From the NCBI GenBank assembly GCA_002715505.1, contig PAZF01000007.1:35372-67713 (forward strand): a stretch of 32,342 bases of DNA. The letters run 5' to 3'. This document shows positions 1,135 through 6,686 of this stretch, piece after piece (position 1 is the first letter of the stretch; the number at the start of each line of letters is the position of its first letter). Made by a program: the position numbers and the translations under genes. The notes beneath the pieces are model-generated. The model was not told the DNA's origin. It did no database searches and saw only the letters and a program-made list of their open reading frames with translations. This stretch comes from Candidatus Pelagibacterales bacterium. GTDB lineage: Bacteria; Pseudomonadota; Alphaproteobacteria; TMED109.

Positions 1135-2265
1135 TTAATTTATTTTATTTAAAAAATACTTTTTTGGCATTGAAAGTACTACCTTTAAATAATCAAGCAA
1201 AGTAGGTACTCCAATCATAAATCTAAAAAAGGATTTTGAATTTATTCTTTTTAGGAAAATAAAAAAAATCAAAGGAGCTGATGAAAGATTTTTTTCTAGA
1301 ACCCCTAAAAATATTCTATCAAGAAAATAAACAATTATATTTTCCTTTGGATGAGAGATAGGTTTTCCGTTTTCTTTTAAGTTAATAGCAGATTTTTTTG
1401 CCCATTCCTGAATTCTTAAAAACGCATATCCAGAGGAAGGCCTTACGGCGCCTCCTATACTTCCTGCATAAAAATATTTATTATTTTTAAAATAAGTATT
1501 TTTATTAATAAACCCCATAGGAATTACTCCATATTCTTTTCTAATTATTTTATAATTTTTAAATTTATTTGTTATTAAACTTTTTAATAATATTTTATCT
1601 AGCTTTTTAGACGTTATTTTAGACTTAGAGAAAAATGTTACCTCTACTAAAAATCTATTTTTTTTTATAGGTAATATGTAATCAAATAAAAAATTATTTT
1701 TCTCATATCGCATACTTTCCATTATATATGCTGCTGTAGAATCAAATCTATTATTATTTGCTATTATTTCATATCCTAAAAATGATTGGAACAAAAAGGG
1801 GCTTTTTACATATATATTCTTTTTGGGCCTAGTATCTAGGATATTATTAGCAATATAGATCTTTTTATTTGTATAAACTAAATATTTATTATTTAAGTTA
1901 CTAATTTTCAATACTTTTTCACCCAAAGCTAAATTAACATTAACTGATTTTTTAATTATACTTTTTGCATGCAGATAAAAATCAATGCTTCTTATATAAT
2001 GATAGTAATAATTATTAGAATTATGAGTAATTTGATTTCCTTTTAAACTAAAGGAAGAGGTTTTCCAAGACTTAGAAATTAGTTTACTTTCTATATCATT
2101 ATTATTTTGCCAAAAACACCAGCTTCTATCATCTTCATATTTTTTTCTTTGTTCTACTATTAAAAAAGTATGATCATATATATTATTTTTAATTAGTTCT
2201 GTTGCAAAAGATAAGGCAGAGCAACCTCCTCCTAAAATTAAATAATCTATTTCATGATGCTTCAT
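1135..2265 (-). CDS. crtY: Lycopene beta-cyclase (CrtY type)
   Basis: A flavoprotein of 376 aa that cyclises both ends of lycopene to give beta-carotene. The N-terminal dinucleotide-binding motif is LILGGGCSAL (residues about 9-18), followed by the DDRSWCFW block typical of CrtY near residue 45, and a C-terminal GGAVRPSSGYAF block that matches the family's G-x-x-x-P-[ST]-[ST]-GY segment. The length is normal for bacterial CrtY (about 380 aa). The start codon overlaps the crtB stop as ATGA, which indicates translational coupling. It sits between crtB and blh, so its product goes straight to retinal formation. Confidence 0.92.
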   Translation of the reverse strand: MKHHEIDYLILGGGCSALSFATELIKNNIYDHTFLIVEQRKKYEDDRSWCFWQNNNDIESKLISKSWKTSSFSLKGNQITHNSNNYYYHYIRSIDFYLHAKSIIKKSVNVNLALGEKVLKISNLNNKYLVYTNKKIYIANNILDTRPKKNIYVKSPFLFQSFLGYEIIANNNRFDSTAAYIMESMRYEKNNFLFDYILPIKKNRFLVEVTFFSKSKITSKKLDKILLKSLITNKFKNYKIIRKEYGVIPMGFINKNTYFKNNKYFYAGSIGGAVRPSSGYAFLRIQEWAKKSAINLKENGKPISHPKENIIVYFLDRIFLGVLEKNLSSAPLIFFIFLKRINSKSFFRFMIGVPTLLDYLKVVLSMPKKYFLNKIN

Positions 2266-3164
2266 ATTTTATTATTTATTACTACAATATTTTTTATATA
2301 TTTATGCAGCTTTCCATTATGATTATAATTCTTCTTGTGAATATTTATATTTAAAAAAAAAATTGCAAGGCATTTAAAAAGGCATAAAACTTTCTCTAAA
2401 AAACTGACTTTTTCTCTTTTATACAAATTTGAAAAACTTTTTTTTATTATTTTCAATCCAATTTGTCTATATATTATAAGTGCCAATAAGACAGTAAATC
2501 TACTCCTTAAATTTAAAAATGCTAACCCTTTTTGAGCGCTTTGGTAATATTCATCTGCTACACTTAATAACTTCAAACTTAAAGACTTTAGTTTAATAAT
2601 AGTTTTTTTATCAAGACTTTTTATATCACTTATACTTAATTTTTTCCAACTCATTGGTAAATATATTCTATTCATATTTGCATCTTCGACAATATCTCTT
2701 GCAATATTTGTAAGTTGAAAAGCTATTCCTAAGTCTACTGCATATTTATAAGCTATTTTTTCTTTTACACCTAAAATATTTGACATCATTAACCCAACAG
2801 TTCCTGCTACTAGGTATGCATAAGATATTAATTCTTGATGATTTTTAATTCTTACTTTTTTTTTTAAATCTAAGCTAACACCTTTAATAAGCTGAAGAAT
2901 ATGTATTTTATTTATCATATTATTTGAAATTAATACTTTAATATTAGCTAATTTTAGACTATTAGAGTCATGGTTTAAATCTTTGACAATTTTCTTTAAT
3001 TTGGCTTCTTTTGCTTTAGACTTCTTGTCTGCTATATCATCTATATATCTACATAATTCATACAATATGGCACTATTTTCAAATGTTTTCTTTTTAAGAA
3101 ATAGTGAAGCAAAAAAGAAACTTTTACTGTTTTTTTTAAAATTATTTTTAGTTGATGTATTTAT
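2262..3164 (-). CDS. crtB: Phytoene synthase, apparently using an ATA start codon
   Basis: Condenses two GGPP molecules to phytoene, the committed carotenoid step. Visible motifs are SFFFASLFL (residues about 15-23), the first Asp-rich segment CRYIDDIAD, and the second Asp-rich segment in ARDIVEDANMNRIYLP. The frame is open up to 3191, but no ATG, GTG or TTG occurs before the TTG at 3065. That TTG is residue 34 and would delete the conserved SFFFASLFL segment. The best start is ATA at 3164-3162: it has GGAG 8 nt upstream, overlaps the crtI stop as ATAA, and gives 300 aa, the usual family length. A single-base change or assembly error from ATG is the alternative. The stop overlaps the crtY start (ATGA). 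Confidence 0.88.
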   Translation of the reverse strand: MNTSTKNNFKKNSKSFFFASLFLKKKTFENSAILYELCRYIDDIADKKSKAKEAKLKKIVKDLNHDSNSLKLANIKVLISNNMINKIHILQLIKGVSLDLKKKVRIKNHQELISYAYLVAGTVGLMMSNILGVKEKIAYKYAVDLGIAFQLTNIARDIVEDANMNRIYLPMSWKKLSISDIKSLDKKTIIKLKSLSLKLLSVADEYYQSAQKGLAFLNLRSRFTVLLALIIYRQIGLKIIKKSFSNLYKREKVSFLEKVLCLFKCLAIFFLNINIHKKNYNHNGKLHKYIKNIVVINNKI

Positions 3165-4621
3165 AACAGTTTCTCCAGAACTCTTGCAGAGCTAAGAACT
3201 CCTGGGAGCCCTGCACCTGGATGAGTTCCTGCTCCAACTAGATATAGATTTTTTATTATTTCAGATTTATTATGAAACCTAAACCAAGCAGACTGTGTAA
3301 AGAAAGGTGCTAAGGAAAAACCTGCTCCAGCATCTGATAAATATCTTTCTTTAAAATCTAAAGGAGTCATATAAAAGCATTGAACAATTTTTTTTCTCAA
3401 ATCAGGCATAAGTCTTTTTTCTAAAACTCTTATAATTAAATTTTTAAATTTCTCAGACTCATTCTTCCAATATATATTTTTAGAAAGTAAATTTGGAACA
3501 GGAACTAAAGCATAAAAACTGTCACAACCTTTAGGTGCAAAGCTTTTATCGGTAGCAGTTGGTCTATGTAAATAAATTGAGATATCTTCGGGTAGTTGAT
3601 ATTTTTTAAAAATTTTAACTAGTAGCTCATAATATTCTTTTCCGAATAAAATAGTATGATGTTCAATTTTGTTATATTGCTTATTAGTTCCAAAAAATAA
3701 AACGAATAAACCCATAGAATGTTTAGCATATTTTTTTTTATATTTAAAAATTCTTTTGTTTTCGAGTTTGATAACGTTTTTGTATAAATATAAAGGGTCC
3801 ATATTAGAGATATAAACATCAGCCTCTCTTTTTTTTCCCTTGTGATCTAGAATAGAACAAATTTTACCATCTTTTATATTAAATTTATTTATGGTTGTAT
3901 TCAAAGTTACCTGTATTCCTACATCTTTTATTAGTTTTGAGAAAGCTCTAACTAGGTTTCCCGTTCCTCCCATAGCAAAATAAACTCCATGTGCCCTTTC
4001 TAAGTAATGTATAAGAGAATAAATACATGTTGTTTCAAAAGGATTTCCTCCAACGAGTAGGGGCTGAATAGAAAATGCTCTTCTAAGTTTCTCACTTTCT
4101 AAATATCTACAAGTAAATTTATAAACACTTTGATAAGATCTAAATTTTAATAAAGAAGGTATTTGCCTTAACATAGTTGAAAGGTTATGAAAAGGCTTGT
4201 CGGCTAATTCACAAAAAGCTAAGTCATAAATTTTTTTTGATTGCATTAGTAAATTATTATAATTTTTTGCATCATTCTTATTAATTTTCTGAATATTATT
4301 GATGGTATTTGAAACTGAGTTTTCATAGTCAAAATATGATCCGTCATTATAAACAAATCTGTACCATACTTTTAAAGGTTTTAAAGTCACATAATCTGAT
4401 AATTTTTTATTATGAATTCTAAATAGTTCTTTGAATAAGAAAGGAGCTGTAATAATTGTAGGGCCAGCATCATATTTAAAACCTTTGATATCGAAGAACT
4501 GGGCCCTTCCTCCAAGATTATTGCACCTGTCAATTATTTCTACTTGATATCCTTTTTTTTTTAATCTCAAAGCGGAAGCCATACCCCCGAAACCTGCACC
4601 TATTACAATAGCTTTTTTCAT
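3161..4621 (-). CDS. crtI: Phytoene desaturase (CrtI type)
   Basis: A FAD-dependent desaturase of 486 aa that converts phytoene to lycopene. The N-terminal Rossmann motif is VIGAGFGGMASALRL (residues about 6-20), followed by the GGRAQ block (residues about 38-42). The C-terminal FAD signature is LVGAGTHPGAGLPGVLSSA, which is diagnostic of bacterial CrtI. Length and both ends are normal. It is the first gene after the hairpin that follows proteorhodopsin, and it is coupled to crtB by a 4-nt overlap. Its ATG at 4621-4619 is the natural start because the FAD motif begins within five residues of it. Confidence 0.95.
   Translation of the reverse strand: MKKAIVIGAGFGGMASALRLKKKGYQVEIIDRCNNLGGRAQFFDIKGFKYDAGPTIITAPFLFKELFRIHNKKLSDYVTLKPLKVWYRFVYNDGSYFDYENSVSNTINNIQKINKNDAKNYNNLLMQSKKIYDLAFCELADKPFHNLSTMLRQIPSLLKFRSYQSVYKFTCRYLESEKLRRAFSIQPLLVGGNPFETTCIYSLIHYLERAHGVYFAMGGTGNLVRAFSKLIKDVGIQVTLNTTINKFNIKDGKICSILDHKGKKREADVYISNMDPLYLYKNVIKLENKRIFKYKKKYAKHSMGLFVLFFGTNKQYNKIEHHTILFGKEYYELLVKIFKKYQLPEDISIYLHRPTATDKSFAPKGCDSFYALVPVPNLLSKNIYWKNESEKFKNLIIRVLEKRLMPDLRKKIVQCFYMTPLDFKERYLSDAGAGFSLAPFFTQSAWFRFHNKSEIIKNLYLVGAGTHPGAGLPGVLSSARVLEKLL
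3162..3176 (-). promoter_or_regulatory. Ribosome binding site and ATA start codon of crtB
   Basis: On the minus strand GGAG (3176-3173) is followed by an 8-nt spacer and ATA (3164-3162). The ATA shares two bases with the crtI stop TAA (3163-3161), giving ATAA where a coupled pair would normally show ATGA. No ATG, GTG or TTG occurs in any minus-strand frame close enough to replace it. ATA (AUA) starts are rare and poorly initiated, so CrtB yield may be held low or depend on ribosomes terminating on crtI. Confidence 0.6.
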
Positions 4622-4689: not shown

Positions 4690-5376
4690 TTATTTATTAT
4701 CAGCAGTAGCTGCAGCCCAAATAACAACTCCAAATGCTATTTTGTTGATAAAATCAGCTAGGTTATAAATAATATTTAAACCTTCTGCGCTTCCTCCACC
4801 AGTATAACCCACTACATATCCAATAGGATAAATAGCCCAACCGATGGTTACTATCAATCTAAGAGCATTGAAAGCTTTCTGACTAGCTGCCGATCCTTTG
4901 CTAGCATTTATCTGACTTGCTTCGCCTGCAAAAATCTCATAAATTATGTATAACCAACCTAGCATACCTATAACGAATCCTACCCAAACATTAATGGATC
5001 CAACTTCTCCTAAGTATCCAGCTACTAACATAACTACAGAGGCTATCAATAATCTCCAAAAAAGCGAGGATTGAACCACTGCAATTGCAGCAAGAATTAG
5101 ATAAAACTCAACAATTTGTAGAGGAACTGTCAAAAGCCAGTCAACATATCTAAATACTATAGGTGTTTCTCCTGTTTCTACCCAAACTCCTCTCATATAA
5201 AAATAATGGATTGCTGCAATTCCTGTCACCATTGCTGCTACTGTTAATGAAGTCTTCCATTTACCTACAGCTCTATCTCTTTCTACCCAAAAGAAATAGG
5301 TTGCTGCTACCATAGCTGCAGAAATTATCCAAAAGGACATTCCTACTAAATCTGACGGATCTAATTGTCCACTCAT
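4690..5376 (-). CDS. Proteorhodopsin, light-driven proton pump, blue-tuned type
   Basis: A seven-helix retinal protein of 228 aa. The helix C segment RYVDWLLTVPLQIVEFY gives the proton-pump set: Arg76, the proton acceptor Asp79 (D97 of the reference proteorhodopsin), Thr83 and the proton donor Glu90 (E108). Gln87 is at the spectral tuning position (105), where Gln is associated with blue absorption and Leu/Met with green. His57 matches the conserved His75 near the acceptor. The Schiff-base lysine is Lys212 in DFINKIAFG. The N-terminus is short with no clear cleaved signal. A strong GGGAGG ribosome binding site lies just upstream. Base composition is visibly less AT-rich than the neighbouring crt genes, as expected for a highly expressed protein. 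Confidence 0.97.
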   Translation of the reverse strand: MSGQLDPSDLVGMSFWIISAAMVAATYFFWVERDRAVGKWKTSLTVAAMVTGIAAIHYFYMRGVWVETGETPIVFRYVDWLLTVPLQIVEFYLILAAIAVVQSSLFWRLLIASVVMLVAGYLGEVGSINVWVGFVIGMLGWLYIIYEIFAGEASQINASKGSAASQKAFNALRLIVTIGWAIYPIGYVVGYTGGGSAEGLNIIYNLADFINKIAFGVVIWAAATADNK

Positions 5377-5428: not shown

Positions 5429-6019
5429 TTAAACCTTGTCTCTATAATCGCAATAATCATCAAATATGTCAATATCTCTTAATGTTTGACAAAACCCCGT
5501 ACTTATTCCGTTCTCTTTTAAATTATTTGTTAAATCATCTAGCACATACTTCGTACTCCATCTAATACCTTTAAAAGGATAATTTATAGATTTTTTATTA
5601 GAAAATCCTATAAGCCAAAATCCTCTGTCATAGGTTGGGCCTAATACAATATCTGAGTTTTTTAATACCTCAAAAGCATTTAATATATATTTTAAATTTA
5701 TTTCTGGAATATCGCTTCCTATCAAAATAAATTTATTCCTTATGATAGATTTCAGGAACCAAATTTTTTCACCTAAATCAGAACCCTTTTGTAGGAGAAT
5801 ATTTTTAGAAAAATTGAATGAGAAACTCCTAAATTTTTTTCTGGGTGTAGTATACAAAAATAACTCAAAATTTTTTTTATTGGATAAGATTTTTTTTATA
5901 TTTTCAATATTTAGTAGTGTAAATCTTTTTACATTACAATTACCAATATCCTTTGCAAGTCTACTTTTTATAAATCCATGAATTGGACTTTTAGTCATTA
6001 GGAAAATACTATTATTCAT
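5429..6019 (-). CDS. TIGR04282 family glycosyltransferase (rSAM/selenodomain-associated transferase 1, DUF2064)
   Basis: A soluble protein of 196 aa with the nucleotidyl/glycosyl-transferase-A fold signatures of the DUF2064 family: the N-terminal MTKSPIHGFIKSRLA (a variant of M-x-K-x-P-x-x-G-x-x-K-T-R-L), FILIGSDIPEI in the middle, and GPTYDRGFWLIGF. The last block usually reads D-G-G; here it is D-R-G. Databases call members arsenosugar biosynthesis glycosyltransferases because some lie near arsM/arsS-like genes, but neither is in this window and the true substrate is unknown. It overlaps the TIGR04283 gene by 8 nt, so the pair is coupled, and it ends 52 bp upstream of the proteorhodopsin start on the same strand. 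Confidence 0.85.
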   Translation of the reverse strand: MNNSIFLMTKSPIHGFIKSRLAKDIGNCNVKRFTLLNIENIKKILSNKKNFELFLYTTPRKKFRSFSFNFSKNILLQKGSDLGEKIWFLKSIIRNKFILIGSDIPEINLKYILNAFEVLKNSDIVLGPTYDRGFWLIGFSNKKSINYPFKGIRWSTKYVLDDLTNNLKENGISTGFCQTLRDIDIFDDYCDYRDKV

Positions 6020-6686
6020 TTCGTGTATAAATTTTATATATGATTTTTTTATTTACATTAAGCAAGAAAAGAATCTGACATATTATATGAATAATTCCTT
6101 GAACAAATACACCATTTTTTTCATAACGTCTGAAAGATGTTATCACCCTTGATTTAAGTAATATTCTATTTTTTTTTGGTACTTTTGTTACAAGCTCTAA
6201 ATCTTCCATAACTTTTTCTTTAGAATGTCCTCCGATTTTAAAATAATAATTTCTACTAATTAGTAAACCTTGATCTCCGAAAGGCAATTTAAAAAGCAAG
6301 GTTCTTATATTTGCCCATATTGATATAAATTTTGCTATAAATTTTTTTTCTCTAAATATAATTTTAAAAAAAGCAATTTTTATTTCGTTATTATTTTTTA
6401 TAAATTTTTTTATTTCTAAAATATTTTCTATATTAAGCTCTGTATCAGCATGCAGAAAAAAGAGCCATTTAGTATCACTCTTTTCTGCCCCTTTAAGTTG
6501 TTGTAGTCCTCTGGAAGGAAGTGTAGTTAAAAATTTTATCTTATTTTTTATATATAATTTTTCTGAATTATCATTAGACCCACCATCAATCACTAAATGT
6601 TTATTTTTTTTAAAAAAACTGAGGTTCTTTAAAATTATATTAATATTACCTTTCTCGTTAAGACATGGTATGATTATAGTAATCAT
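6012..6686 (-). CDS. TIGR04283 family glycosyltransferase (rSAM/selenodomain-associated transferase 2, GT2-like)
   Basis: A GT-A glycosyltransferase of 224 aa. The N-terminus ITIIIPCLNEKGNI is the GT2 nucleotide-binding strand. LVIDGGSNDNS follows, then GLQQLKGAEKSDTKWLFFLHADTEL with the metal-binding aspartate region, FGDQGLLI, and VMEDLEL. This order (RGxxQ, LHADT, FGDQ, MED) is the TIGR04283 pattern. Substrate and acceptor are not evident; the arsenosugar label of the family is not supported by any neighbour here. The start overlaps the ubiA stop as ATGA and the end overlaps the TIGR04282 gene. All three therefore appear to be one transcript running towards the rhodopsin. Confidence 0.88.
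   Translation of the reverse strand: MITIIIPCLNEKGNINIILKNLSFFKKNKHLVIDGGSNDNSEKLYIKNKIKFLTTLPSRGLQQLKGAEKSDTKWLFFLHADTELNIENILEIKKFIKNNNEIKIAFFKIIFREKKFIAKFISIWANIRTLLFKLPFGDQGLLISRNYYFKIGGHSKEKVMEDLELVTKVPKKNRILLKSRVITSFRRYEKNGVFVQGIIHIICQILFLLNVNKKIIYKIYTRNE

Follow-up and report, generated by a model that had tools for sequence, protein, structure and literature searches.

A probable AUA start codon of the phytoene synthase gene crtB embedded in the crtI stop codon of a marine alphaproteobacterial carotenoid operon

In the carotenoid operon described here, the phytoene synthase gene crtB very probably starts at an AUA codon that shares bases with the stop codon of the upstream gene crtI, as judged from the junction and its counterparts in related genomes. 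The explanation that best fits all observations, and which we consider probable as a whole, is that CrtB is made from this AUA by ribosomes that re-initiate after the crtI stop and are held by a Shine-Dalgarno (SD) sequence, in a clade that tolerates near-cognate starts and in which AUA and AUU would be weak but usable start codons of about 1% of the genes.

The window, i.e. the whole 32-kb stretch of DNA analysed (32,342 nucleotides), is part of a 1.70 Mb genome in 31 contigs with a GC content of about 30%, which is labelled G000. All genes of the cluster are located on the minus strand. A proteorhodopsin-like gene (4690-5376), which was recognised from its translation and which none of the NCBIfam models matched, adjoins the carotenoid genes. 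The phytoene desaturase gene crtI (3161-4621; TIGR02734, 520.8 bits vs a cut-off of 238.1) is located upstream of crtB (2262-3164; 300 codons from ATA plus the stop) and overlaps it. Downstream of crtB lie a crtY-like lycopene cyclase gene (1135-2265) and a gene for a Brp/Blh-type beta-carotene 15,15'-dioxygenase (blh, 256-1125; TIGR03753, 144.8 bits vs a cut-off of 95.25). The junction of crtB and crtY is an ordinary ATGA at 2265-2262, in which the ATG of crtY overlaps the crtB stop. CrtB contains a squalene/phytoene synthase domain (PF00494, residues 10-255, E 1.1e-46, 160 bits vs a cut-off of 26), and its best NCBIfam model is NF042419 (CrtB) with 163.9 bits, which is below the curated equivalog cut-off of 480. 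The neighbouring crtI, crtY and blh support an assignment as CrtB over HpnC/HpnD, but the score is too low for the equivalog name. Gene content and order are the same as in the proteorhodopsin-linked crtIBY-blh clusters of marine Alphaproteobacteria. Upstream of the proteorhodopsin-like gene we further noticed two glycosyltransferase-like genes (5429-6686 of the window), for which TIGR04282 and TIGR04283 (arsenosugar biosynthesis) score just below their cut-offs.

An earlier note on this DNA had placed the crtB start at an ATA that overlaps the crtI stop as ATAA and follows a GGAG at a spacing of 8 nt, and these coordinates hold. On the minus strand the junction reads GGAG AAACTGTT ATA A, where the ATA (3162-3164) and the crtI stop TAA (3161-3163) share bases in a -4 register (ATAA, 3164-3161), crtB being in the -1 frame of crtI, and where the GGAG (3173-3176) lies within the end of crtI, 8 nt from the ATA. 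The pair would resemble an ATGA pair in its working without being one, since the downstream start codon is ATA and not ATG. Upstream, the crtB frame is closed by an in-frame TAG (3192-3194) and is open from 3191 to 2262. Its first ATG, GTG or TTG is a TTG at 3065 (3063-3065), which is located inside the enzyme core and past the conserved N-terminal helix segment SFFFASLFL (3096-3122), so that none of the three canonical codons retains this segment, just as the note had stated. In the source genome, the 75 nt preceding SFFF contain no ATG, GTG or TTG in any frame.

The named close relatives of the source genome are marine alphaproteobacterial records of TMED93 and the single-cell genome AG-390-K05, and G000, G001 (TMED93), G002 and G003 (AG-390-K05) represent four species of one genus. 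The crtB products of the other three species are 62-63% identical to the source CrtB, and all four species have the ATA in the ATAA register with the GGAG at the identical place; ATG was present in none of them. The same ATA, register and GGAG are found in the public records L006 and L007, which represent two of the four species. In a member of another genus with 49% identity (G006), the junction is ATT ATA A after an AGAGAGG SD, with the ATA again in the ATAA register. No in-frame NTG codon is present upstream of SFFF in the four genus species or in G006, and of all NTG and ATH codons there, only the ATA at position -14 relative to SFFF recurs in all four members of the genus. In any frame, the only ATG, GTG or TTG in the 75 nt before SFFF of these four is a TTG that serves as a leucine codon of crtI.

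The leader from the ATA to SFFF comprises 13 codons and is free of insertions and deletions across the genus. Within codons 2-14, independent comparisons gave differences at 1-2, 3 and 6-7 of the 13 sites for codon positions 1, 2 and 3, respectively, the genus representing three independent lineages in these comparisons. Since the leader differs mainly at third positions, it appears to be read as a translated frame. Within crtI, the SD is spelled by a leucine codon ending in G followed by GAG in every species of the genus, a choice for which codon usage gives a probability of 0.151 x 0.223 = 0.034; since the species share ancestry, this value is supportive but does not amount to a formal test. 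The conserved ATAA by itself is only weakly informative: crtI ends with a leucine codon and a stop, and TTA TAA is the commonest spelling of these two in a genome in which TTA makes up 52% of the leucine codons and TAA 67% of the stops. The strong evidence for AUA lies in the shared absence of NTG codons, the conserved SD and the translated leader. Alternatively, translation may begin a few codons away from the ATA at a non-ATH codon. In each species, part of the SD is concealed by the predicted fold of the junction; a conserved hairpin was rejected, and RNA structure is no proof of coupling, because the predicted folds differ between species.

To place the junction within the genome, we surveyed 827 kb of the source genome, about half of it, in which 31 same-strand gene pairs have the ATAA register. 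In every other pair a canonical start comes no later than 16 codons on, and in almost every one no later than 7, while crtB needs 33. A general role of ATAA overlaps as sole start was thus rejected, crtB being the only 1 of the 31. The genetic code is standard: among 766 genes, TAA is used 512, TAG 130 and TGA 124 times, and a code change with loss of TGA as a stop was rejected based on these 124 genes, common ATGA overlaps and a tRNA-Trp with the anticodon CCA.

The earlier note had offered a single-base error or mutation as an alternative; the true codon would then be ATG (in an ATGA), either misread during sequencing or assembly or newly mutated in one genome. Metagenome-assembled genomes do carry errors, and some genes of the source genome look broken at poly-A runs, but the same ATA is present in independent metagenome-assembled genomes, in a single-cell assembly of another species and in G006. 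Because the same base would have to be wrong in all assemblies, this alternative is refuted, and its probability is practically nil. It is hardly more credible that translation begins at the TTG at 3065 and yields a shorter CrtB. This TTG is the first canonical codon and would leave the Asp-rich motif intact; however, the codon is TTA in the other three species, a start there would delete the conserved SFFFASLFL, and the 13 codons ahead of SFFF evolve as coding sequence. We also regard it as very improbable that crtB is reached by a frameshift from crtI or by polymerase slippage on a run of eight A, resulting in a fusion or a shifted start. The position of crtB in the -1 frame of crtI, the A8 run in the leader of the source genome and the poly-A breaks elsewhere in this genome would be in line with such a route, but the overlap lacks an X XXY YYZ site, the A run is absent in G002, and within the genus there is no ATG, GTG or TTG in another frame outside crtI from which slippage could proceed.

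If the AUA is the start of crtB, it is not the only one of its kind in the clade. We screened for genes with coding sequence ahead of the first ATG, GTG or TTG and an SD 4-10 nt before an ATA, ATT, ATC or CTG. Positives numbered about 9 in G000 (698 genes), 8 in G002 (564 genes) and 5 in G003 (358 genes), including a few that we judged to be false, whereas one SAR11-like control genome of equal GC content gave a single positive among 354 genes, which was spurious on inspection. Orthologues were compared at the same aligned codon, where real sense genes have only ATA or ATT; for the sisters, smaller parts of two genomes were read. The gene infC starts, with an SD, at ATA in the genera g1, g4, g7, g6 and g2 and at ATC in g8 (L081:1746 (-), L080, L082, L193-L212). 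An aspartate aminotransferase-like gene has ATT after AAGGAG in 4 of 4 genus members and ATT after an AGGAGG-like SD in most of the g7 members read, and ATG or TTG in g6 and g2 (L049:17468 (+), L107:10639 (+), L184-L189). For fdhD, the start is ATT in g1 and g7, where it overlaps or adjoins an upstream TGA, ATT or ATA in g4, and ATG in g6 (L084:9066 (+), L151:15164 (+), L213-L224). Conserved starts were also found for thiE (ATT) and for the gene of a SPOR protein (ATA), and for several near-cognate genes the Pfam domain begins ahead of the first canonical codon. In G000, argC, pyrE, a glycosyltransferase gene and a NosR-like gene also look near-cognate, their orthologues being located outside the sampled sister sequence. 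A GST gene without ATG in the source genome was rejected, since its sister has ATG, and coaD, bioD and one aminotransferase gene were rejected because their frames are broken at poly-A runs. These frame breaks (L083:17070; L042 (-), around 15915; L047:9635) reflect either assembly error or polymerase slippage. As a separate observation, pheS of G003 (L148:1774 (+)) seems to start at ATC after GAGGTG.

It is conceivable, though we are somewhat doubtful, that in these AT-rich marine Alphaproteobacteria (g1, g4, g7) AUA and AUU are regular starts of about 1% of the genes owing to a laxer initiation machinery, crtB being one case that is embedded in a stop. A cause of the near-cognate excess was sought in RsmA, the initiator tRNA and IF3, and was not found there, as all three look ordinary. 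Loss of RsmA/KsgA was rejected based on a full-length match in G000. An unusual initiator tRNA was likewise rejected: its stem is the common alphaproteobacterial one and reads AGG/CCT across the family and in the SAR11-like control, which is why a tRNA pattern requiring a GGG/CCC stem gave no match. IF3 is complete with no motif missing and has only a few clade-specific substitutions in an alignment that includes the E. coli sequence. In E. coli, infC starts at AUU and is autoregulated through IF3. It resembles crtB in having a near-cognate start with an SD, and the infC of the clade itself has AUA or AUC; unlike E. coli infC, crtB encodes a metabolic enzyme and is not known to be connected with IF3. 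If E. coli infC and the AUA starts of S. aureus are taken as a guide, the AUA start of infC points to an IF3 that still discriminates in these bacteria.

For crtB, we picture the following course of events. A ribosome finishing crtI at the UAA would slip back by one base, while the GGAG in the last crtI codons would keep it on the anti-SD, so that the AUA would come to sit in the P site. The initiator tRNA, presumably fMet-tRNA, would then pair with the AUA by A-U, U-A and a C.A mismatch at the third base. Most ribosomes on crtB would thus come from reinitiation after crtI, with a yield per ribosome below that of AUG. Coupling of crtB to crtI translation is likely in view of an anatomy that fits termination-reinitiation, and a throttling of CrtB by the reduced efficiency of AUA would be expected from other bacteria. 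The literature on SD-dependent reinitiation and on the AUA yields in S. aureus is the reason for proposing this route. For gene overlaps, SD-dependent termination-reinitiation has been established in both E. coli and archaea (PMC6728339), and post-termination 70S scanning in vitro depends on the SD and IF3 (reviewed in PMC5972666), although 70S scanning and reinitiation are under debate (PMC12548453). In S. aureus, infC, ccpN, citZ and cvfC1 have conserved AUA or AUU starts with about 10-30% of the AUG yield, AUA giving around 10%, with ccpN reaching as much as 30% in rich medium (PMC13009471).

Two further explanations accept AUA as the start. Ribosomes could load de novo on the GGAG, so that crtI translation would be irrelevant; we consider this unlikely. 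It would agree with the conserved SD and with infC, the aspartate aminotransferase-like gene and others, which use AUA or AUU without such an overlap, but the ATA coincides precisely with the crtI stop in five species, near-cognate starts are poor at de novo loading, and part of the SD is base-paired in the predicted fold. Rather improbable is also a dedicated control, in which the AUA would tune carotenoid flux via the level of IF3 or the pool of free ribosomes. Phytoene synthase frequently limits the rate of the pathway, the AUA is conserved in two genera, and infC starts at AUA as well, so that both genes would feel IF3; however, many unrelated genes of the clade share such starts, and the genus g7 uses TTG for crtB. 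In view of the further AUA and AUU starts of the lineage, which the earlier note did not foresee, no special regulation of crtB has to be assumed.

AUA starts are known elsewhere, and what is new here is the stop-overlap setting and the clade-wide excess. Like the S. aureus set, crtB has a near-cognate start with a good SD that is kept in relatives; unlike that set (PMC13009471), which is not described as overlapping an upstream stop, it has a four-base SD inside crtI. Compared to coupled ATGA/TGATG pairs, the four-base register is identical and the SD also lies within the upstream gene, whereas an AUA start and a UAA stop replace AUG and UGA (PMC6728339). Gene finders limited to ATG, GTG and TTG truncate or miss such genes, including crtB and an aminotransferase gene. 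An AUA locked into an upstream stop provides a clean natural experiment on whether ribosomes that reinitiate evade proofreading by IF3, and should the clade-wide excess persist across complete genomes, it would open a comparative route to the determinants of bacterial start-codon stringency.

An ordinary tolerance of near-cognate codons is probably the origin of the crtB start, which the good SD and the crtI stop would keep in place whether or not it brings a regulatory advantage. The AUA is not essential for the pathway, since crtB of the related genus g7 starts at a TTG that immediately follows the crtI stop; the tree allows either ATA or TTG to have come first. In other alphaproteobacteria, readable crtI-crtB junctions with ATG, GTG or TTG do not show the AUA-in-stop feature. 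In L069 and L071, which belong to another alphaproteobacterial family, the junction is ATAATG, i.e. an ATA in the same register followed by an in-frame ATG, which is possibly a picture of the ancestral state.
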